Of a stretch of 64,000 nt of DNA, positions 3,304 to 30,539 are shown one piece after another. The notes under the pieces are model-generated. The model made no database searches. It was given only the letters and a program-made list of their open reading frames with translations, and had not been told where the DNA came from. This DNA comes from Desertivirga arenae (GTDB taxonomy: Bacteria; Bacteroidota; Bacteroidia; Sphingobacteriales; Sphingobacteriaceae). Positions within the stretch are counted from its first letter, which is position 1; the number at the start of each line of letters is the position of its first letter. The stretch is taken from the NCBI RefSeq assembly GCF_017355785.1, contig NZ_JAFEWE010000007.1, positions 124,001-188,000 on the forward strand, written 5' to 3'. Both the position numbers and the translations under genes were made by a program.

Positions 3304-5385
3304 ATGAAAAGTAAGATCATTGTTCTAGTATTTATTGCCACATCCCTGTTTTCTGTGGTAAAAGCGCAAAGTACTCCTGGAGCCCAAAAGCAGTCTGCCA
3401 GTGGATTTATTCATACAGCAGCGGGAAATCCTTATCTTCCTCTTTGGGAGCACGTGCCGGATGGTGAACCCCGCGTTTTCGAAGATCCAGATAAGCCTGG
3501 GAAGTATCGTGCTTATATTATTGGTTCGCACGACGTAAGGTTTTCCAGCTATTGCGGAGCAGACATAAGGATGTGGTCGGCACCGGTTGAAGATTTGTCC
3601 AGCTGGCGTGATGAAGGGGCAATCTTTACCTATACTATTGATGGACAATGGGATGTAATGTATGCCCCTGATCTGGTGGAGGTGAAAAGAAGGAATGGTA
3701 AGAAGGAATATTATCTTTATCCTCATAGCCGTGGGAATAATAGAATAGCAATGGTTGCTAAGGGGGATCGCCCGGATGGACCTTTTACCCCTGTTAATCT
3801 AACTGCTGACGGAAAGCAGGTTTTGCCTGGAAGTCTCCTGGGCTTTGATCCGGCAGTGTACATCGAGCAAATTAATGATCCTAAAGACCCTGATTACAAT
3901 ATTGGTTTTAGAGCTTATGCCTATTGGGGCTTTCAAAAGTCTTCAGCAGCGCAGTTGGATCAGAATACCATGTATTCACTAAGACCTGGTACAGAAGTTA
4001 TTGAACGCCTGATACCTGCCAGTTCCCGTTACGGAGTACTTCGGGATCCAAAAGGGACAGAATTTCCTAAGATCTATCCAGGCGAGGATCTGGGCACATT
4101 TAACTTCTTCGAGGCCTCATCCATCCGGAAGGTAGGAAATAAATACGTGTCAATATATAGTGGTTATTCAGGACCGGAATATGGAATAGGCAGCTCAAAC
4201 TCTACACTGCGATATGCTATAGGGGATTCACCTTTAGGCCCATGGAAAGGGGGAGGCGTTTTGGTAGATTCACGTGCACCGGTTCTAAACCAGGACGGGT
4301 CTGCCATCGTAGGAACTAACGCAGGACATAATACGCATGGCAGTATTGAGTTAATTAATGGTCAATGGTATGTATTTTACCACAGGCCTCCGCGTGGCTT
4401 TGGTTTTGCACGCCAGGCTGTAGTTGCTCCTGTAACGATTAAATGGGACGAGAAACCGGTTTCGGAAGGTGGAACAGTTTCTATTCGTGCTTACGATCCT
4501 TTCGCGAAGGATAAGGTGTGGACAGCCAAAAGCAATGACGGAAAAGAATATAAAGGAGCTGAAGTTACTTCAGAGGGTTTCCATTTTTATGGGCTTAACC
4601 CTTATCAATATTACTCTGCGGGATATGCCTGTTACCTTTCCAATGGCGTTGCGATGGAGGATTCCTGGGATATTTGGGATAACCATATGCCGGTATCTAA
4701 TGTTAGGAACGGCTCTGTTGTAGGGTTCAAATATTTCGGTTTTGGGGGGCTTAATAAAGAGAAAAATGGTCTAAAGCCTTTTGAAGGAACCAAAAAAGGG
4801 AACCAAACTGCCTTCAATCTTTTTCTTACCCCAAGAACCAGTAAATCGTTCAAAGTAAATGTTTGGTTAGATGGACCATGGGATAATACGACCTGGAAAG
4901 GTATAAAAATGGGTGAAATTATTGTACCTGCCAATGCTAAGCAGGAATCCACTCAGTTTAAAATTGACGTAGCGAAATTTGTAGAACATCTGGATAAAAA
5001 ACATGCTGTTTATCTGGTTGCAGAAGGGGAAGGAGGGGAACTGCTTTTTGATCTTCAGGGTTTAGGATTTAGTTTGAAGAAAAAGGAACTTGTCCGCCCT
5101 GTTGTGCCTGTTGTGAACATTGCCGTTAATGGCAAGTCAATAGAATTACCAAAAACACCTGTCAGATCTACCAACGAGAACGGAATACTTGGTTACAATA
5201 ATTATGAAGTTAATTATGCTATTTCATCTGAAGCAAGTGAAATACCGCGTATTACCGCCTCTTCCAATAATCCGGCAGTAAAAGTTTCGATAACACAGGC
5301 AACCTCATTGCCAGGTACAGCGAAAGTGAATTTTAATTACAATGGTATTGTAAAGACTTATCAAATTGTATATTCCGGTAAATAA
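3304..5385 (+). CDS. secreted GH43-like glycoside hydrolase with C-terminal accessory domains
   Basis: The 693-residue protein has a signal peptide (about 1-21, ending VVKAQ) and a five-bladed beta-propeller of the GH43 type. Likely catalytic residues are the base D61 (FEDPD), the pKa modulator D123 (MYAPDL) and the acid E270 (NFFEASSIRK). HNTHGSIELINGQWYVFYHR at the end of the propeller is typical of GH43. About 200 residues resembling a carbohydrate-binding beta-sandwich follow (around 400-595), then a 90-residue Ig-like tail (around 603-693). GH43 enzymes release L-arabinofuranose, D-xylose or related sugars; the exact linkage cannot be told here. A hairpin terminator follows directly. No LacI-type operator was seen upstream, so it may belong to the ECF-sigma system on its left rather than to the mannan PUL on its right. 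Confidence 0.8.
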   Translation: MKSKIIVLVFIATSLFSVVKAQSTPGAQKQSASGFIHTAAGNPYLPLWEHVPDGEPRVFEDPDKPGKYRAYIIGSHDVRFSSYCGADIRMWSAPVEDLSSWRDEGAIFTYTIDGQWDVMYAPDLVEVKRRNGKKEYYLYPHSRGNNRIAMVAKGDRPDGPFTPVNLTADGKQVLPGSLLGFDPAVYIEQINDPKDPDYNIGFRAYAYWGFQKSSAAQLDQNTMYSLRPGTEVIERLIPASSRYGVLRDPKGTEFPKIYPGEDLGTFNFFEASSIRKVGNKYVSIYSGYSGPEYGIGSSNSTLRYAIGDSPLGPWKGGGVLVDSRAPVLNQDGSAIVGTNAGHNTHGSIELINGQWYVFYHRPPRGFGFARQAVVAPVTIKWDEKPVSEGGTVSIRAYDPFAKDKVWTAKSNDGKEYKGAEVTSEGFHFYGLNPYQYYSAGYACYLSNGVAMEDSWDIWDNHMPVSNVRNGSVVGFKYFGFGGLNKEKNGLKPFEGTKKGNQTAFNLFLTPRTSKSFKVNVWLDGPWDNTTWKGIKMGEIIVPANAKQESTQFKIDVAKFVEHLDKKHAVYLVAEGEGGELLFDLQGLGFSLKKKELVRPVVPVVNIAVNGKSIELPKTPVRSTNENGILGYNNYEVNYAISSEASEIPRITASSNNPAVKVSITQATSLPGTAKVNFNYNGIVKTYQIVYSGK

Positions 5386-6721: not shown

Positions 6722-9061
6722 ATGAAATTAAGGCATTCTATGTATCAATCACTGCCAGGTAGAAAACAGGTACTGTTTTTGGTTTTCCTGACTATTCTTC
6801 TCCAGCAGGCTTTTGCTCAGGTTAAAAGCCCTGCAGATTATGTAAACCCTTTTATAGGTGCCAGTACCAGCGAAGGTGCTGCTGGAATATACCACGGTTT
6901 AGGTAAAACTTTTCCTGGCGCAACTACTCCTTTCGGAATGGTTCAGGTAAGTCCTAATACGATCACCGGTGGTGATAACGGATCAGGATATAGTTTTGAG
7001 CATAAAACAATAGAAGGCTTCGCACTTACACAAATGAGTGGGGTAGGGTGGTTTGGCGACATGGGTAACTTCCTGGTAATGCCTGCAACAGGAGCTTTAC
7101 AAACTAGTTCGGGTAAGGAAAATGGGGTGAAGGGATATAGGTCATTTTACGATAAATCAAGCGAGAAAGCTTCTGCCGGATACTATAGCACCTTCCTTAC
7201 GGATTATAAGATAAAAGCTGAGCTAAGTGCAACGCCACATTGTGGGATAATGCGATTCTCCTTTCCTAAACATCAAATGTCGAGGATACAAATTGATCTG
7301 GCAAGGCGGGTAGGGGGTACTTCAACTTCCCAGTACGTAAAAATGGTTGATGAGAATACGATAGAAGGTTGGATGAAATGCACTCCCGACGGTGGAGGAT
7401 GGGGAAATGGAGATGGGAAGGCCGACTACACAGTTTATTTCTGTGCTAAATTTAGCAGACCTTTAAAGGAATACGGGTTTTGGAGTGCCGATATTCCAGA
7501 AAGTTGGGGCAGGAAACGTGAAGATGTTGAAAGCAAGTCTTATCAGGAACGTGTGGCTAAATCGGCGATATTAAAAGGGCTGAAAGCAATTTCGGGTAAA
7601 CACCTTGGCTTTTTTGCGAATTTTAATACTGGGGAAGGAGAGCAGATCATCCTGAAAACTGGGATTTCTTACATTAGCGTTGAGGGCGCAAGAAATAACT
7701 TATCGAAAGAAATCCCAGACTGGAACTTCGCAAGAGTGCAAATAAGGGCTAAACAATTATGGAACGATGCTTTGGCTAAGATTGAGGTCAAGGGTGGTAA
7801 TGAGGAGGAAAAGGTGAATTTTTACACCGCGCTTTATCATACTATGATAGATCCACGTATCTTCCAGGATGTTGACGGGAAATATCCTGGAGGTGACGGA
7901 CAGGCGCACTCCTCCACTAAATTTATTAAGCGCACGATTTTCAGCGGCTGGGATGTCTTCAGGAGCCAAATGCCTCTTCAAACAATTATCAACCAGGGGC
8001 TCGTAAATGATCTGATCAATTCTTTGGTAACATTAGCTGATGAAAAGAAGTTTGATTACCTGGAACGCTGGGAAATGCTTAACTCTTACAGTGGTTGCAT
8101 GATCGGTAATCCTGCAGTATCTGTGATCGCAGATGCTTATGCCAAAGGAATAAGGGGATTCGATGTGAACAAAGCCTATCAGTTGTGTAAGAATACAGTG
8201 GAGAAGTTTGGCAATGGAAGCCGCGGCTATACTTCTGAATCTTTTGGTATTGCCAACACTTTAGAGTACGCATACTCCGATTGGTGTGTTTCCCGTCTTG
8301 CCAGTGCTTTAGGGTATACGGAAGACGCCGCCACTTACCAAAGGAGAGGGAAGGCTTATCAAAACATCTTTGATCCTCAGGTGGGCTGGTTCAGGCCGAA
8401 AGACAAGGACGGCAATTGGGAGCCCTGGCCGGAGGAGGGCCGGTTGAAGCAATGGTATGGCTGCATTGAGAGTAATCCTTACCAGCAGGGCTGGTTTGTG
8501 CCTCATGACGTACCTGGAATGGTACAATTGATGGGAGGACGTGAGAAGGTTTTAACGGATCTCCAGCAATTCTTTGAAAAGGTCCCGGAGAATATGATGT
8601 GGAATGATTATTATAACCATCCAAATGAACCTGTTCATCACGTCCCGTTTCTGTTCAATCATTTAGAGGCACCTTGGCTTACACAAAAATGGACCAGGCA
8701 GATCTGCGCCAGGGCTTATAGGAACAAAGTTGAAGGTTTGGTAGGAAACGAGGATGTTGGCCAAATGTCGGCGTGGTATGTACTTGCCGCTGTTGGCCTG
8801 CACCCCATCTGCCCGGGTGATACCAGGTATGAAATTACAAGTCCTGTATTTAGTGAAGCCAGTTTAAAAACCGGAGAAGGGTCTTCTAATACCTTTAAGG
8901 TCCTTGCTAGAAATAATTCCAAAAAAAATATCTATATACAAGGTGCTACACTTAATGGCGAGCCTTATAATAAGAGCAGCATCGATTATTCAGTGATAGC
9001 AAAAGGTGGTGTGCTGGTATTACAGATGGGAAGTTCCCCCAATAAAAACTGGGGGAATTAG
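6722..9061 (+). CDS. GH92 alpha-mannosidase, probable alpha-1,2 type
   Basis: The 779-residue protein carries a signal peptide (about 1-33, ending QQAFAQ). The GH92 N-terminal domain begins YVNPFIG and contains FPGATTPFGMVQVSPNT. The (alpha/alpha)6 catalytic domain holds the likely general acid E583 (IESNPYQQGWFVPHD), the motif HPNEP at 633-637, and GNEDVGQMSAWY with N676, E677 and D678. GH92 enzymes are calcium-dependent inverting exo-alpha-mannosidases. As I recall from work on the family, HxNEP marks those that cut alpha-1,2 bonds, so this gene is predicted to do so; the second GH92 lacks it. It is the first gene of the LacI-type regulon, with the operator inside its promoter. A long hairpin at 9110-9162 ends the unit, so it is probably transcribed alone. 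Confidence 0.95.
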   Translation: MKLRHSMYQSLPGRKQVLFLVFLTILLQQAFAQVKSPADYVNPFIGASTSEGAAGIYHGLGKTFPGATTPFGMVQVSPNTITGGDNGSGYSFEHKTIEGFALTQMSGVGWFGDMGNFLVMPATGALQTSSGKENGVKGYRSFYDKSSEKASAGYYSTFLTDYKIKAELSATPHCGIMRFSFPKHQMSRIQIDLARRVGGTSTSQYVKMVDENTIEGWMKCTPDGGGWGNGDGKADYTVYFCAKFSRPLKEYGFWSADIPESWGRKREDVESKSYQERVAKSAILKGLKAISGKHLGFFANFNTGEGEQIILKTGISYISVEGARNNLSKEIPDWNFARVQIRAKQLWNDALAKIEVKGGNEEEKVNFYTALYHTMIDPRIFQDVDGKYPGGDGQAHSSTKFIKRTIFSGWDVFRSQMPLQTIINQGLVNDLINSLVTLADEKKFDYLERWEMLNSYSGCMIGNPAVSVIADAYAKGIRGFDVNKAYQLCKNTVEKFGNGSRGYTSESFGIANTLEYAYSDWCVSRLASALGYTEDAATYQRRGKAYQNIFDPQVGWFRPKDKDGNWEPWPEEGRLKQWYGCIESNPYQQGWFVPHDVPGMVQLMGGREKVLTDLQQFFEKVPENMMWNDYYNHPNEPVHHVPFLFNHLEAPWLTQKWTRQICARAYRNKVEGLVGNEDVGQMSAWYVLAAVGLHPICPGDTRYEITSPVFSEASLKTGEGSSNTFKVLARNNSKKNIYIQGATLNGEPYNKSSIDYSVIAKGGVLVLQMGSSPNKNWGN

Positions 9062-22678: not shown

Positions 22679-24070
22679 ATGAAACTTAGTTTTTTACTGC
22701 CAGGCCTTGCCTGTCTTTGTACCCAACTCTCAACTGCTCAGCCTAAACCTCAACCCTTTAAATCAGGAGACCGGGTGGTTTTCGCTGGGAACAGTATTAC
22801 CGAAGCAGGTTTATACGGCTCTAATATCTGGTTGTATTATATGACCCATTTCCCCGAAAGAAAAATACAAGTATTAAATGCCGGTGTTGGTGGAGATGTG
22901 GCCGAGCAAATTTACAAACGATTGGATGATGATATTCTCGCTAAAAAGCCAACAGTGCTTGCTGTGACCTTCGGAATGAATGATAGTAAGTACTTTGAGT
23001 ATAACTCGCCCAATCCGGACGTGAATGGCTTTGTAAAAACATCGTATGATAGCTATCTGAAGATTGAAAAAAAACTACAGGAGCTGAAGGGTGTGAAGAA
23101 GATCATTATGGCATCCTCCCCTTATGATGAAAACGTCCAGTTGCCAAATAATAATGCTTTTAAAGGGAAATTCAAAACTATGGAAAAGATCATTGAATTT
23201 CAAAAGGCTTCAGCTTTCAACAATAACTGGAGCTATGTAGATTTCTTTTATCCAATGGCCCAGATTAATCTGCGCGAGCAGAAAAAGAACCCGGTTTATA
23301 CAGCTTCAGGAAATGATCGTATCCATCCAAGCAGTGCTGGCCACCTGGTAATGGCATATATCTTTTTGAAAAGTCAGGGATTAGCAGGTTCCTGTATCGC
23401 TGATGTTAGTGTTGATTACGCTGCCGGCAAGGTAGTTAAATCAGTAAATGCAAAAAGCGATAAAGTGCTGAAAATAAAGGATGGAATACGCTTCGATTAC
23501 CTTGCTAATTCTCTTCCTTTTCCCATAGATACAGTTCCACGGGTGTGGATGAACCCTGAAGTACAAAGCGAGGCCTTAAAGATCGTACCTTTTAATGAAG
23601 AATTTAATAATGAGAGGTTGGTAGTGAGAAATTTACCTGCGGGAAGGTATACATTAAGAATAGACCGGGATCCAGTTGCAGAATTCTCTGCGCATGAGCT
23701 TGCTGCAGGGATAAATATAGCTACACTTAAAAACACGCCGCAGTACCAGCAGTCATTACAAGTGCTTAAACTGAGTAATGAACGACGGGAAATTGAAGGA
23801 AAATTCAGAAGCTATTTCTGGGTTAATTACAATTTTCTGGCGGATAAGAAGATGTTGTTCGACAAGTCATCCGCTGCCAGGGATACGATCGAAAAGTATG
23901 CGCCGAGTAACGGTTGGTTGAATGGAAAGAAAAATGACTGGGAAATGGTGCGGGAGGAAAATTCAGGAAAGATGCTTGAAAGCAAAATGAATGCACTGGT
24001 CGACGAGATATACCGGGTAAACAAGCCTAAGAAACATACCATCGAAATCGTAGCTGTTTCTTTTAACTAA
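22679..24070 (+). CDS. secreted SGNH/GDSL hydrolase
   Basis: The 463-residue protein has a signal peptide (about 1-21, ending LSTAQ). SGNH blocks are intact: block I AGNSITEAG with the nucleophile S39, block II NAGVGGD (G71), block III FGMND (N101) and block V DRIHPSSAGH with D213 and H216. The SGNH domain ends near residue 235. The other 230 residues form a C-terminal region without a family that I can name, ending in a helical stretch around KPKKHTIEIVAV. Such enzymes in PULs commonly remove acetyl or other acyl groups from polysaccharides. The next gene starts 7 bp after the stop, so the two are cotranscribed with the GH78-like enzyme. Confidence 0.85.
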   Translation: MKLSFLLPGLACLCTQLSTAQPKPQPFKSGDRVVFAGNSITEAGLYGSNIWLYYMTHFPERKIQVLNAGVGGDVAEQIYKRLDDDILAKKPTVLAVTFGMNDSKYFEYNSPNPDVNGFVKTSYDSYLKIEKKLQELKGVKKIIMASSPYDENVQLPNNNAFKGKFKTMEKIIEFQKASAFNNNWSYVDFFYPMAQINLREQKKNPVYTASGNDRIHPSSAGHLVMAYIFLKSQGLAGSCIADVSVDYAAGKVVKSVNAKSDKVLKIKDGIRFDYLANSLPFPIDTVPRVWMNPEVQSEALKIVPFNEEFNNERLVVRNLPAGRYTLRIDRDPVAEFSAHELAAGINIATLKNTPQYQQSLQVLKLSNERREIEGKFRSYFWVNYNFLADKKMLFDKSSAARDTIEKYAPSNGWLNGKKNDWEMVREENSGKMLESKMNALVDEIYRVNKPKKHTIEIVAVSFN

Positions 24071-24076
24071 GCTAGA

Positions 24077-26410
24077 ATGGAACGTATATTCAAAGTCTTT
24101 TTAACTTTTTTTATTTTATTGACCGGCCATCTGGTGTATGGCCAGTCGGAATGGCATGCGGAATGGATCGCCGGGAAAAATATTACAGGAACCGAGTATG
24201 GGGTGTACCATTTTCGTAAAACTGTTGATATAGCAATTAAGCCTGCAAAATTTATTGTTTATGTATCGGCAGATAACCGTTATAAGCTTTATGTCAATGG
24301 CCGGTTGGTATCACTTGGCCCAGCCCGGGGGGATAGTTATTCATGGAATTACGAAACGCTTGACCTTGCCCCTTACCTTAATCCTGGGAGCAATACAGTA
24401 TCAGCTTTGGTGTTTAACGAATCGGAGTTTCGTCCTGAAGCTCAGGTAAGTTTCAGGACGGGATTTATTCTTCAGGGTAGCTCTCCTGCGGAAGAGATCC
24501 TGAACACTAATAATACATGGAAATGTATTCGCAGTGCAGGACATAGGCCTGTTCCTGGTTATTTCTTTGCTGCTAGTAAAGGGGAAATGATAGATATGAA
24601 GCACACAGTCAAAGGCGACTGGACAGCCCGGCGGTATGACGATTCCTCATGGCCGGCCGCTGAGAAAATTGCTGATGGCCGACCTAAAGGAAAGGCCTGG
24701 GGTACTGATTGGGCTCTGGTTCCCTCCACCTTGGCAGCAAGGGAAATGTCGTATTTACGGATCCCAAAGCTAAGAAGTGCAACAGGAGCGAATGTGCCCT
24801 CATCTTTTCCTGCTAAAAAAACATCCTTTACGATCCCGGCTAATACCCTTGCAGTATTGTTGCTCGACCAAACCTACGAAACAAACGCTTATATTACATT
24901 GAATTTTGATGGTGGAAAAGACGCGGGTATTTCTATAGGTTATGCGGAAACGCTTTATGATAAGGGAAGCAACGGCAGGCAAAAAAGTAACCGGAATGAG
25001 GTGGTGGGGAAGGAGTTTATCGGGCGAATTGACAGTTTAATTGCTGATGGGACTGATGACCAAACTTTTACCACGCTAAACTTCCGCACTTATCGTTATA
25101 TCAGACTCTTAATCCATACCCAGAACGAACCCTTGATCATTCAAGACCTTTACGGGACTTTTACTGGGTATCCTTTTAAAAAAGTAGCGGTATTCGATTC
25201 GCCAAATACCGAGATTAAGCAAATATTGGATATCGGATGGCGTACAGCAAGGTTAAACGCCTGGGAGACTTATACCGACTGTCCTTATTACGAGCAGCTG
25301 CAGTATATAGGCGATACCCGGATCCAGGCTATGATATCCTATTACAATACGGATGATGACCGTCTTGCCAGGAACGCCCTTACTCAAATAGACCACTCCC
25401 GTTTACCTGAAGGAGTGACAAGAAGTTGCTATCCAACAAAGGGCACTCAGGTAATACCGCCCTTTTCTTTGTGGTACATTGGCATGTTATATGATTTCTG
25501 GATGTATCGAAATGATCCTGGATTTGTAAAGGATAAACTTATCGGAGTTAGGGGAGTGCTCGACTTTTTCAGGAAGTATCAACAGGCGGATGGATCGTTG
25601 AAAGATGTACCATACTGGGCTTTTGTAGATTGGGCGGGTAACCTGGCAGGAGAAGTTAAGGGTTCGGATGGTAGTGCGGCAATCCATGATCTGCAATTGT
25701 TGTTAGCTTTTCAATGGGCCGCGCAAATGGAAGCGAAGCTTGGGTTGCAGGACCTTGCCACTCTGTATCATCAAAGGGCCATTCAGTTGCAAAAAACGAT
25801 ACAGGGTAAATATTGGGATGCTGGCAGAAAGCTATATGCCGATACCAGGGAGAAGACGGGGTTTTCTCAACATGCAAATGCTCTTGCCATACTTGCCGGT
25901 GTGGTAGATCAGGATGTTATACCGGCAGTTGCTGAGGGAATGCTGAAGGATAAAAGCTTAACCCAATGTACGGTCTACTTCAAATACTACCTCAATCAGG
26001 CTTTAGTGAAGGCGGGTTTGGGGAATGATTATATGAACTGGCTGGATATCTGGCTTCAGAACATGGCATTGGGACTTACCACCTGGGCTGAGGATTCAAG
26101 TTTGGAGACGGTTCGATCTGAATGTCATGCCTGGGGATCAAGTCCTAATATCGAATTTTTCAGAACAGTATTAGGTGTTGATACGGATGCTCCAGGATTT
26201 AGCAAAGTCAGGATTAAACCTCATTTGGGTAGCCTTACCAACGTAAAGGGGGTAATTCCTCATCCCAGGGGAATGGTCAGCCTGCATTACTATGAGCATA
26301 GGGGGAAGTGGAAAATTAATATAGAACTTCCATCCGAAATTTCGGGGGTTTTTGAATGGAAGGCAAAGACCTATAAGCTTAATTCAGGGCAAAATTCTTT
26401 TGTCCTGTAG
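24077..26410 (+). CDS. GH78-like alpha-L-rhamnosidase
   Basis: The 777-residue protein has a signal peptide (about 1-23, ending LVYGQ). It begins with a GH78-type N-terminal beta-sandwich (EWHAEWIAG, then VSADNRYKLYVNGRLVSLGPARGD) and a second beta domain. The (alpha/alpha)6 domain contains the GH78-like signature DCPYYEQLQYIGDTRIQ with D401, E406 and D413. TWAEDSSLETVRSECHAWGSSP near residues 675-696 is the C-terminal catalytic-domain motif. The protein ends in a C-terminal beta-sandwich. GH78 enzymes remove terminal alpha-L-rhamnose by inversion. Its place in a mannosidase PUL suggests that the target glycan is rhamnose-decorated, or that this subgroup has another specificity. It is the last intact gene of the 9478 operon. 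Confidence 0.85.
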   Translation: MERIFKVFLTFFILLTGHLVYGQSEWHAEWIAGKNITGTEYGVYHFRKTVDIAIKPAKFIVYVSADNRYKLYVNGRLVSLGPARGDSYSWNYETLDLAPYLNPGSNTVSALVFNESEFRPEAQVSFRTGFILQGSSPAEEILNTNNTWKCIRSAGHRPVPGYFFAASKGEMIDMKHTVKGDWTARRYDDSSWPAAEKIADGRPKGKAWGTDWALVPSTLAAREMSYLRIPKLRSATGANVPSSFPAKKTSFTIPANTLAVLLLDQTYETNAYITLNFDGGKDAGISIGYAETLYDKGSNGRQKSNRNEVVGKEFIGRIDSLIADGTDDQTFTTLNFRTYRYIRLLIHTQNEPLIIQDLYGTFTGYPFKKVAVFDSPNTEIKQILDIGWRTARLNAWETYTDCPYYEQLQYIGDTRIQAMISYYNTDDDRLARNALTQIDHSRLPEGVTRSCYPTKGTQVIPPFSLWYIGMLYDFWMYRNDPGFVKDKLIGVRGVLDFFRKYQQADGSLKDVPYWAFVDWAGNLAGEVKGSDGSAAIHDLQLLLAFQWAAQMEAKLGLQDLATLYHQRAIQLQKTIQGKYWDAGRKLYADTREKTGFSQHANALAILAGVVDQDVIPAVAEGMLKDKSLTQCTVYFKYYLNQALVKAGLGNDYMNWLDIWLQNMALGLTTWAEDSSLETVRSECHAWGSSPNIEFFRTVLGVDTDAPGFSKVRIKPHLGSLTNVKGVIPHPRGMVSLHYYEHRGKWKINIELPSEISGVFEWKAKTYKLNSGQNSFVL

Positions 26411-26515
26411 TTGTTATTTGTATAGGCAGACCCGAACGAACGATTAGATAATACAAATTTGGAAAAGATTAAGGACTTAATTAAGCATTTTCAGCGGGTA
26501 AGTTCTGTCCTAACC

Positions 26516-27271
26516 TGCGGAAGTTTGTTGGTTTCTAACACTGCGAGGACACAGAAAAGTTATTTTATAGACGGTTACCACGGAGGTGTTTGGGGACACT
26601 ACCCTGATAGAAGAACAAAAGCTCTTTAAAAATGCTCCGTTCGACGTTGTGCATAGTAAGTTGCAGAACACCTTCTTTAACCGGTGGGACAGTATAAAGA
26701 ATAATGTGATCCTCAATTGGGTAGATGTTACAGGTGCAAAAAATAGGTACGGAATGGCTTTATATAGCGATCACACCACCAGTTACAGTTATGGTAACGA
26801 TTTTCCATTAAGTCTTACCCTTCAGTATTCAGGAATGGGGCTTTGGGGTATGAATTACAAGATCAAGGGGTCTTCCGTAATCCATTACAGTATAGTGCCG
26901 AATGAAGGCAATTGGGACAAGGCATTATTAAATGCTGAAAGTACTTTCATAAATGAACCCCTAATAACTGCACAAACGGCAAATTGCTCAAAGGATGGAG
27001 CCGGTAGGTCTTTATTAACCTCCTTTACCCTGGTCTGGAGCTTAGCAGTATGACTTTCGACCAGGGAGCCTTGTTCCTCAGGTTCTATAATGCCTTTGAG
27101 AGTGGGGCGGAAAATAAGGTATTACTAACGGGGCATGTTAAAAAAGCGGAGCTGGTAGAGCTTGATGGAAGAGTAAAACAATATATGACGATAAGCCGGC
27201 AGGGAGCAGAATCGGTAGTCCGTTTTTCTATCCCGGCGTTTGGCATACGAACTATTAAAGTGTATTACTAA
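26516..27271 (+). pseudogene. remnant of a GH38 alpha-mannosidase (internal deletion and frameshifts)
   Basis: One frame reads TQKSYFIDGYHGGVWGHYPD (codons from about 26549), the conserved start of the GH38 catalytic domain. It then runs into a stop at 26627. From about 26613 a different frame reads EEQKLFKNAPFDVVHSKL, then NWVDVTGAK, ALYSDHTTSYSYGNDFPL and LQYSGMGLWGMNY, which are C-terminal GH38 sequences. This frame stops at 27051-27053, and the closing block FDQGALFLRFYNAFESG to FGIRTIKVYY continues in a third frame (27050-27271). A complete GH38 of this type is roughly 1000 residues, so about 2 kb of catalytic core is gone, with at least two frame breaks. The 175 bp before it hold no start codon in the right frame. 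It lies between the GH78-like gene and the Lgt-like gene. Confidence 0.85.
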
Positions 27272-27327
27272 CAAGCAAAATAATGTGTATTCTTAATGCT
27301 TAAATATTTCTTGCCTTATATTTTGGT

Positions 27328-28236
27328 ATGTTTCCAACTTTGTCTCATCTTATAAAGTACTTAACCGGCCTTGATATCTATGTCCCCGGACAAACGTTTG
27401 GATTATTTGTTGTATTAGCCTTTGCCACCTCATATTATACCTTCAGGCTTGAATTTATAAGGAAGGAGCGGTTAGGCCTTATTAAACTCTCCCCATCCCG
27501 TACCAGGCCAGGTGAACTTGAACATCCCTATCAGTTGATGGACAAATTGCTGCTCTGGGCAGCGATCTGGGGATTTATAGGTGCAAAGCTTTTCAACTGT
27601 TTCGAGGCTCCGGCGATGTTTTTCAGAGATCCGGCAGGAATGTTTTTTTCTATTGACGGCTGGACTTTTTACGGAGGATTGGTATTTGGTGCGATCTCTT
27701 ATCTTGTAATTGGTTACAGGCATGGAATGCGATTAATAGACCTGGCAGATATCGGATCTCCGGGCATGCTGGTTGCTTATGGAGTGGGAAGGTTAGGGTG
27801 TCATCTTTCTGGTGACGGCGATTGGGGGAGAGTAAATCTTCACACTAAACCCTTTACATGGGTGCCCGACTGGATTTGGGCCTCCACTTATCCTCATAAC
27901 GTGTTAAGGGAAGGTGAATACATCCAGGGCTGTTCCGAAGAATATTGCTCTCAACTTTTAAAGCCGGTTTATCCAACATCTCTCTATGAAGCTATAGTAA
28001 TCCTATCGCTGTTTTGTCTGCTATGGAAGTTTAAAGACAAGCTGCAGCACCCCGGATCAATGTTTTCATTGTACCTCATTATAAATGGGGGAGAACGGCT
28101 TCTTATGGAGCAGATCAAGGTTAATTTGAATTATACGATTGCTGGTCTCTCTTTTTCTCAAGCAGAACTAATTGCTGCATTGTTTCTTGTATCAGGAATT
28201 GCCGGTATTACTTGTCTTAGTTTACGTAAATCTTAA
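27328..28236 (+). CDS. lgt: Lgt-like prolipoprotein diacylglyceryl transferase
   Basis: The 302-residue polytopic membrane protein should move diacylglycerol from phosphatidylglycerol to the lipobox cysteine of prolipoproteins. Family landmarks are [17 protein letters not shown] near the N-terminus, [10 protein letters not shown] in the position of the E. coli HGG loop, [17 protein letters not shown] (Lgt signature region, arginine retained), PTSLYEA and the late [10 protein letters not shown]. Compared with E. coli Lgt the HGG histidine is a tyrosine and the signature carries GDGDWG. From memory this is a form seen in Bacteroidota. Around seven hydrophobic segments are visible. Its position inside the PUL, between a pseudogene and a GH92 gene, is unusual. 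It may serve the many lipoproteins of the locus or be a second cellular copy. Confidence 0.8.
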
Positions 28237-28331: not shown

Positions 28332-30539
28332 ATGATTTTTTTTCCGAAGTCGGTTTCGCCTAAAGTGAAACTTCTATTAAGAAAAATATTATCTCTTTTT
28401 CTGCTATCGATTGCTGCCAAGGCCTATTCACAATCGGCCAACCATGGGGGGTATGCAAATTATGTGAACACCCAGATTGGTTCTAAAGGGAAAGGGCATG
28501 GAAAGCATGAGCAATATCTGGAGGCGGGGTATACTTTTCCTGGTGCAATGTCGCCGTTTGGAATGGTTCAGTTTACCACTACATTTTTCAATGAAGATCG
28601 TGGTTTTGTTATCAACCAAATGAGTGGAGCAGGCTGTGAGCACATGGGGAACATGCCTCTTATTCCCTTGGATGGAGACTTGAAAGTGTCGCCGGATTCC
28701 ATGACCACCTTCAATCCCGGATTCAAAATCTTACGTTCCGTTGCAGGCTATTATAAATCATCAAGTGATCAGGGCGTTATTTCCGAGCTCAGTGTAACTA
28801 CCCGCACGGGTATGGGTAGGTTTAGTTTTGCTCACAAGCAGGGGACAATTATTATAGGGACAGGAATTAATGCGACGAAAATCACAGACGCAAGTGTCAA
28901 GATCACTAGTCCGAAAAGTTTTGAGGGTTATGCCGATGGCGGGCAGTTCTGCGGGTCTCCTGCTAATTATAAAATCTATTTCGTAGCCCAGTTTAGTGAG
29001 CCAGCAATTACCAGCGGGACTTGGGAAGGCGCGCGTCTCCGATCTTCTGATAAAACTGCTTCAGGAGAAAATTCAGGGGTATACTTCACCTTCGATACAA
29101 GGGTAAAAAAGAAAATTTTATATAAGGTGGGTATTTCCTATGTTTCTCTTGAAAATGCACGCCAAAATCTCATAGTCGAAAATAATGCCTGGAACTTCGA
29201 CGATGTAGTTTCCAAGACGCAGTCGGCCTGGAATAAATGTTTAGGGAAAATAGAGGTAAGCAAACCCGCTGATGCAACACAGTTTTATACCGGGCTTTAT
29301 CATGTTTTCACTCATCCAAATATCTATAATGATGTGAATGGCGAATATATGGGCGCTGATTATAAGGTTCACAAAGTTAGCAAAGGCAATTATTATACTG
29401 CTTTTAGTAATTGGGATACCTATCGTACACAAGTCCAGCTAATTGCGATGTTACTTCCGCGGGAGACTTCAGAAATGATGAGCTCTATACTCACTTTTGC
29501 CGAGCAGTCGGGAGGTGGATTTCCCAGATGGGTCTTGAATAGCACGGAGACAGGCATAATGCAAGGTGATCCCACTTCTATTTTAGTTGCTAATGCATAT
29601 GCTTTCGGTGCTAATACATTCGATCTAGCTAAGGCTTTAAAGGTAATGCGGAGAGGTGCTGAAGATCCCGATACGAAGTCTCAGAAAGAACTTACCCGGC
29701 CCATGCTAAAACAGTATCTGGAAAAGGGTTATATGCATGCTTCAATGATGCTGGAATATACTTCCGCAGACTTTGCTATCGGTCAGTTCGCGCTTCAGGC
29801 CTTCCAAGACTCCATTTTGTACCGCCGGTATCTCAAACGAGCCCAGAGCTGGAAAAATTTGTATAATCCTCAAAGTACCTGGCTGCAGTCGCGTAACGAA
29901 GATGGGAGCTGGAAACCTTATAATCACGACTGGAGAGAGCTAAGTTATAAGGGTTATTTCTGGATGCTGCCTTATAATTGGAAGAAATTAATTGACACTA
30001 TAGGAGGAAAAAAGGTAGCCGAGAAAAGGTTAGACGAATTCTTCAGCAAGTTGAACGCAAACTATCATGAAGAATGGTTTGCCTCTGGAAATGAACCGGA
30101 TTTTCAGGTTCCATGGGCCTACAATTGGACCGGGCAGCCTTACAAAACTCAAAATATAGTAAAACGAATTATAAAAGAACAATATGCTAATCGTCCTAAT
30201 GGACTTCCCGGAAATGATGACCTGGGAGCAATGGGAGCCTTTTACGTCTTTGCTAATATCGGCATGTTCCCCGTGGTGCCGGGCTTGGGAGGATTTTCTC
30301 TAAATAGTCCCTCATTCGATGTGGTCAAATTACACCTTGCCAAAGGAACACTGATCATTAATGGTGGAAGCTCTGACAAAGCTTATATTAATAATCTTAA
30401 GCTTAATGGGAAATCATTTAATAGCACCTGGATTTCCTGGAACGCTATTCAAAAAGGAGGAATACTGAGCTTTAATTTATCTGATGTCCCAAATAAAACC
30501 TGGGGAGCTCAGACAGAGCCTCCTTCATTTGATTATTAA
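28332..30539 (+). CDS. GH92 alpha-mannosidase, non-HxNEP clade
   Basis: The 735-residue protein has an n-region of about 18 residues and a signal peptide ending near residue 34 (AAKAYSQ). The GH92 start NYVNTQIGS and FPGAMSPFGMVQFT are followed by the (alpha/alpha)6 catalytic domain with YKGYFWMLPYNWKKL, SGNEP (585-589), VPWAYNWTGQPYKTQ and GNDDLGAMGAFYVF. The usual alpha-1,2 marker HxNEP is replaced by SGNEP. A different linkage preference (alpha-1,3, -1,4 or -1,6) is inferred. It heads its own operon with the GH130, GH2 and later enzyme genes and has the LacI-type operator in its promoter. Confidence 0.93.
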   Translation: MIFFPKSVSPKVKLLLRKILSLFLLSIAAKAYSQSANHGGYANYVNTQIGSKGKGHGKHEQYLEAGYTFPGAMSPFGMVQFTTTFFNEDRGFVINQMSGAGCEHMGNMPLIPLDGDLKVSPDSMTTFNPGFKILRSVAGYYKSSSDQGVISELSVTTRTGMGRFSFAHKQGTIIIGTGINATKITDASVKITSPKSFEGYADGGQFCGSPANYKIYFVAQFSEPAITSGTWEGARLRSSDKTASGENSGVYFTFDTRVKKKILYKVGISYVSLENARQNLIVENNAWNFDDVVSKTQSAWNKCLGKIEVSKPADATQFYTGLYHVFTHPNIYNDVNGEYMGADYKVHKVSKGNYYTAFSNWDTYRTQVQLIAMLLPRETSEMMSSILTFAEQSGGGFPRWVLNSTETGIMQGDPTSILVANAYAFGANTFDLAKALKVMRRGAEDPDTKSQKELTRPMLKQYLEKGYMHASMMLEYTSADFAIGQFALQAFQDSILYRRYLKRAQSWKNLYNPQSTWLQSRNEDGSWKPYNHDWRELSYKGYFWMLPYNWKKLIDTIGGKKVAEKRLDEFFSKLNANYHEEWFASGNEPDFQVPWAYNWTGQPYKTQNIVKRIIKEQYANRPNGLPGNDDLGAMGAFYVFANIGMFPVVPGLGGFSLNSPSFDVVKLHLAKGTLIINGGSSDKAYINNLKLNGKSFNSTWISWNAIQKGGILSFNLSDVPNKTWGAQTEPPSFDY

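Follow-up and report, generated by a model that had tools for sequence, protein, structure and literature searches.

Remnant of a GH38-like gene between GH78-type and Lgt-like genes in a PUL of Desertivirga arenae

Solved members of GH38 include Ams1 (6lz1) and SpGH38 from Streptococcus pyogenes (2wyi). According to their published descriptions, the Asp that serves as nucleophile also binds the metal (D402 in Ams1, D125 in SpGH38), and an H.D motif is given as H290/D292 in Ams1 and His13/Asp15 in SpGH38. Here we describe pieces of a GH38-like gene within a PUL of Desertivirga arenae. The window, i.e. the whole stretch of 64,000 nucleotides that was analysed, corresponds to positions 124001-188000 of contig C41 (297,569 bases) in a draft genome of 6.19 Mb (43 contigs, 99.83% complete).

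Intact relatives of the gene are predicted to adopt the GH38 fold. All three relatives tested (859-870 residues) exceed the cut-offs of PF01074 (29.3-34.3 bits vs. 25) and PF07748 (35.5-46.2 bits vs. 25), and PF09261 is above its cut-off in one of them. NCBIfam yields mannosylglycerate hydrolase only, at 24.9-40.7 bits and thus far under the cut-off of 1138. The structure of a Mucilaginibacter segetis protein (L184) was predicted on the basis of a 28-row alignment, the best model reaching a mean pLDDT of 84.1 and the other four 73.5-74.7. In a fold search with this model the first 35 of the 50 matches listed are GH38 enzymes, and Ams1 is the best match among the solved ones (Z 28.2, rmsd 3.1, 716 residues). 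The predicted fold is common to L184, Ams1 and SpGH38 over residues 24-848, with an identity of 14-17% to solved GH38 enzymes in structural alignments.

The putative active site resembles that of the solved enzymes in part. The His-Asp pair of the metal site in Ams1 and SpGH38 aligns with the intact relative, and an Asp matches the acid/base by eye. In contrast to both enzymes, a Glu (E142 of L184, motif EEPC) is aligned with the Asp nucleophile in 56/56 and 28/28 rows, whereby the HMMER alignment of this region is weak (5.5 and 4.6 bits, two domains shown) and compares sequences, not superposed active sites. An invariant Glu-Glu occupies the place of the GH38 nucleophile at L184 residues 139-145. 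Moreover, the N-terminal motif of the subfamily reads D..H (L184 residues 30-33), as opposed to H.D in the solved enzymes. We regard the exchange of Asp for Glu as a lead. An earlier note on this DNA had named the lost enzyme an alpha-mannosidase. Such an activity is not established and the label is unsupported as stated, because of the Glu at the nucleophile position and because no characterised close relative was seen. Tentatively, and with rather more doubt than trust, the gene could be assigned to a separate subfamily with the GH38 fold, found in PULs of Bacteroidota, in which Glu replaces the Asp nucleophile and the metal site is rearranged. The bond it cuts might then not be an alpha-mannoside, and its PULs, many of them with a second Lgt of their own, could discard it.

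In the window, a GH78-type gene (24077-26410, + strand; alpha-L-rhamnosidase according to its Pfam domains) is followed at a distance of 917 bases by a second Lgt-like gene of short form (prolipoprotein diacylglyceryl transferase, 27328-28236, + strand). Translated comparison reveals three stretches in this gap, each of which is part of one protein family. The 5' remnant (26522-26605, + strand) comprises the end of a signal-peptide-like stretch followed by the motif QKSYFIDGYHGGVWGHYP. The middle remnant (26608-27020, + strand) lies in another frame and covers approximately residues 643-780 of an intact relative, which belong to its C-terminal half. The 3' remnant (27008-27271, + strand) is in the frame of the 5' remnant again, closes with a stop codon and matches PF17677, the GH38 C-terminal domain, just above the Pfam cut-off (22.7 vs. 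22 bits). The first two pieces gave no match in Pfam and NCBIfam, even at E 10; the GH38-like family of the remnant became clear because whole intact relatives were used instead of fragments.

A search of the whole 6.19 Mb genome with an intact relative of 870 aa (G015), in which matches up to E 1 were taken, returned three matches, all of them at this locus. Residues 20-54 match 26522-26626 (E 1e-4), residues 643-780 match 26610-27020 (E 3.5e-48, 56% identity) and residues 777-867 match 27008-27277 (E 2.5e-9), the last aligned span crossing the stop codon at 27269-27271. These collinear matches are far above chance and tie a single locus to one intact family. Neither the search with the intact relative (E up to 1) nor the PF01074 profile brought up a further GH38 gene in this genome. 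The remnant pieces are collinear with GH38-like genes from Mucilaginibacter, Pedobacter, Desertivirga and further Bacteroidota. They are full-length open frames, whereas about two thirds of the gene length is gone from the remnant (26522-27271 overall), which retains ~50 N-terminal and ~225 C-terminal residues in comparison with 56 intact relatives of 842-922 aa.

The earlier note had proposed that a large internal deletion destroyed the gene, quoting peptides that are all present in the sequence, and had asked for an alignment with intact GH38 genes. We ran it against the 56 relatives, and it shows a deletion as well as a frameshift. From the proline of HYP to the lysine of KNAPFD, the intact relatives count 583-604 residues (median 596). 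In the window the CCT of HYP ends at 26605 and KNAP begins at 26628, leaving 22 nt. Therefore 1727-1790 nt (1.73-1.79 kb) are missing, a length that is not a multiple of 3 if a single event took place, and the junction is out of frame. Only ~6-7 codons separate the end of HYPD from FKNAPFD, fewer than the ~15 claimed before. The junction is bracketed at 26604-26611 (+ strand) by the points at which DNA matches to relatives stop and start, those on the 5' side ending at 26604-26608 and the outermost on the 3' side starting at 26608-26611. No relative closer than 55% identity over the remnant was found in the tree alignment of 57 rows, so that the deletion ends are given as a bracket. Two inverted pairs in 26300-27400 were taken as chance.

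The deleted part contains E142, H348 and D349 (L184 numbering), which are HMMER-aligned with the nucleophile and the His-Asp metal pair of Ams1, and also D240, whose correspondence to the acid/base of Ams1 is by eye only. The absence of the catalytic core, as claimed earlier, is thus borne out for the residues aligned with the nucleophile, the acid/base and the second metal site. A second lesion, again a frame change, is located about 400 bp after the deletion junction at 27008-27020 (+ strand), where the alignments of the middle and the last block overlap. It does not open yet another frame, as had been assumed: the first and the last block share a frame (positions 26426 and 27008 each give 2 mod 3), from which the middle block (0) differs. 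No in-frame ATG or GTG lies between the stop codon ahead of the first block and the HYP motif. In-frame TTG codons precede or lie within the first block (26459, 26525 and 26528) and a TTG start is possible; a Met precedes the leader in all five intact relatives that were looked at.

An error of assembly or sequencing, i.e. an intact GH38 gene in the strain that was collapsed by the assembler, could mimic such a locus. The genome is a draft of 43 contigs, and a sequencing error might account for the frameshift if this were the sole defect. However, a single collapse would not be expected to produce separate defects (the deletion, the later frameshift and the lack of an ATG or GTG start). No direct repeat of ≥12 nt was found in 26300-27400, the GH78 and GH92 neighbours are full length, the contig spans 297,569 bases, the missing middle was found on no other contig, and syntenic relatives are likewise devoid of GH38. 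We thus consider an error of this kind very improbable.

Taken together our data argue strongly for 26522-27271 being a pseudogene of a full-length secreted GH38-like exo-glycosidase, once located between the GH78 and Lgt-like genes, that was wrecked by deletion and whose loss the PUL would tolerate. One deletion, or a few overlapping ones, would have removed ~1.75 kb from the middle of the gene, with an out-of-frame fusion of the two ends as the result. It would be accompanied by a separate frameshift and probably also by the loss of a usable start codon, and a functional enzyme could no longer be made from what is left. That a PUL loses one of its exo-glycosidases is nothing unprecedented, namely ordinary gene decay.

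That the remnant still yields a small protein as a stand-alone C-terminal module is a reading for which we see hardly any chance. A frame of 155 codons starting from GTG 26586 (26586-27053) is open, and the middle block keeps 27/28 strongly conserved positions. This frame, however, begins inside the broken 5' part and stops at the frameshift in the middle of a domain. The middle piece is matched in 57 of 301 sampled family genomes (the window's own included), and the other 56 have one match each within an uninterrupted open frame of 845-922 codons; a stand-alone C-terminal piece was not seen among these relatives. The conservation, moreover, is equally explained by recent decay.

That the loss is recent had been suggested before and is consistent with several features of the pseudogene. 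No stop codon occurs within the three aligned pieces, and the remnant keeps 42 of the 43 columns that it covers and in which the 56 relatives are ≥95% conserved. In a tree of 57 rows and 223 columns, the root-to-tip distance of the remnant is about average (1.04 vs. a mean of 1.01, SD 0.23; rank 24 of 57). These values are compatible with a loss that is young on the scale of genus divergence, which carries no date. Counted against it is the terminal branch of the remnant, the fourth longest of 57 (0.68; median 0.21), as would be expected for an isolated lineage or some faster change. The remnant groups with the genes of another Desertivirga genome (G001) and of genera g13, g15, g16, g18 and g19 (9 tips, support 88); support is low in the middle of the tree (33-40 at deeper nodes). 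The closest relative is L184, to which the middle piece is 66-68% identical. When this piece alone was used to scan named genomes, no relative came up. With a 12-row alignment of intact proteins as query, the same collection gave 80 kept loci of 310, in a search that depends on two motifs from the deleted core and is hence blind to other wrecked copies.

The rest of the PUL had been described as otherwise intact, and apparently this is the case. Two genomes of genus g20 (G088 and G098) carry the cluster of the window in the same order, with the GH92 gene (6722) and the LacI-type gene (38204) as its outer members and 72-93% identity for 17 window proteins. Of the 18 intact window proteins that were compared, 17 have a full-length or nearly full-length alignment in each of the two genomes, among them the GH78-type protein (777/777 residues). 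Frame 3304-5385 has no counterpart in the cluster stretches of G088 and G098. This 693-aa frame lies upstream of the PUL and has neither a Pfam match (E 0.001) nor a homologue in the compared stretches. The PUL encodes GH130, GH2 and two GH92 enzymes. One GH92 gene (28332-30539, + strand) is full length in comparison with G088 and G098, and the other (6722-9061, + strand) is the likely counterpart of the GH92 gene near GH38 in many relatives (60-71% identity in most). The surroundings of the 56 intact genes, in stretches of at most 20 kb, include a GDSL gene in 45 cases and GH92 in 45 cases.

The g20 clusters contain no GH38 remnant. Their GH78 and Lgt-like genes are separated by merely 43 and 15 nt (stop codon included) in G088 and G098, respectively, and the best tblastn hit of the 56 intact proteins in these stretches has an E value of 0.039 and lies outside the gap. 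PF01074 finds nothing across the whole genomes of G088, G098, G002 and D. arenae itself, while the same search detects the gene in 6/6 genomes having it. GH38-free forms of this PUL thus exist. Unlike the window, they have an extra GH92-like open frame between GDSL and GH78 (765 codons in G088, 757 in G098) and hence three GH92 genes; in the window the GDSL and GH78 genes are only 6 bases apart (24070-24077) and the third GH92 gene is absent.

Genus g20 may have lost GH38 or may never have had it. In three genomes of genus g4 (G068, G100 and G121), an Lgt-like gene comes immediately after an intact GH38 gene, which is the arrangement at the remnant; homologues of the window's SusC and SusD (63-65%) are located upstream of GH38 in G068 and G100, and in G068 a homologue of the lectin gene (42%) as well. 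That GH38 lies next to Lgt in g4 favours an old gene. In the tree, on the other hand, the remnant falls away from these g4 genes, which argues for a possible separate arrival of the gene in this PUL.

The similarity to genus g20 also touches on whose loss this was. The PUL or the gene could have arrived from another genus already broken, so that the loss would not be an event of this strain. Besides the 72-93% identity of the PUL proteins, the GH78 protein is 78-83% identical to g20 but only 65% to its best match in the same-genus genome G001, and three chromosomal frames at one locus behave differently, with 70-82% to G088 and 82-89% to G001. A fourth frame (222 aa, opposite strand, 33-48%) is left out of this marker set as it is probably not a gene, and the chromosomal comparison consequently consists of three markers at one locus. 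Against an import of the broken gene, 63 of 399 family genomes searched (two places scored per genome) give a match, but the junction is spanned by none other than the window's own. We consider such an origin possible, albeit somewhat unlikely. As an observation on the PUL as a whole, region 6722-39253 matches the PUL of the other genus at least about as closely as the three chromosomal frames match the same genome (70-82% to G088), pointing to possible horizontal transfer.

For a pseudogene that decayed in place, tolerance of the loss would most likely be due to the GH92 enzymes (and GH130, GH2) covering the bond, or to the side chain cut by GH38 being rare or unimportant for the strain. That the two GH92 enzymes make GH38 redundant had been offered earlier. 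Both enzymes are present and the idea is plausible in view of GH38-free PULs, but those have three GH92 genes; simple redundancy is weakened because this third GH92 is absent from the window. The GH38-free syntenic relatives are new here and make an ordinary pseudogene more informative. The PUL with the remnant may be an intermediate between the GH38-bearing PUL and the GH38-free form of the related genus and, if so, the locus shows one step in the shedding of PUL enzymes. The wider point is small, as gene decay in PULs is expected. As a practical warning, annotation could list the GH38 fragments at this locus as genes. Searches of the literature on GH38/GH92 PULs, PUL pseudogenes, Mucilaginibacter GH38 and PUL gene loss gave no title on this locus among the matches listed.

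The downstream neighbour is a second Lgt inside the PUL, the housekeeping Lgt of the same genome being encoded on contig C23. At 27472-27530 of the window, the PUL copy lacks ~77 residues that the PUL copies of g4 possess; the housekeeping Lgt, too, has a similar stretch that is missing here. Recent damage of this gene by deletion was considered and rejected, since the same short form occurs in G088 (83%) and G098 (79%); it is common to G088, G098 and G288. A literature search for Lgt together with PUL and SusD found no paper. Because two matches often come from a single long Lgt, three or more were used as a rough indicator of a second copy. Among 301 family genomes this number is reached by 32 of the 57 that have the GH38-like gene vs. 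14 of 244 without it (uncorrected for relatedness, the 14 being counted by eye). In at least 20 of the 56 relatives, an Lgt-like gene is located on the GH38 contig within ~31 kb.
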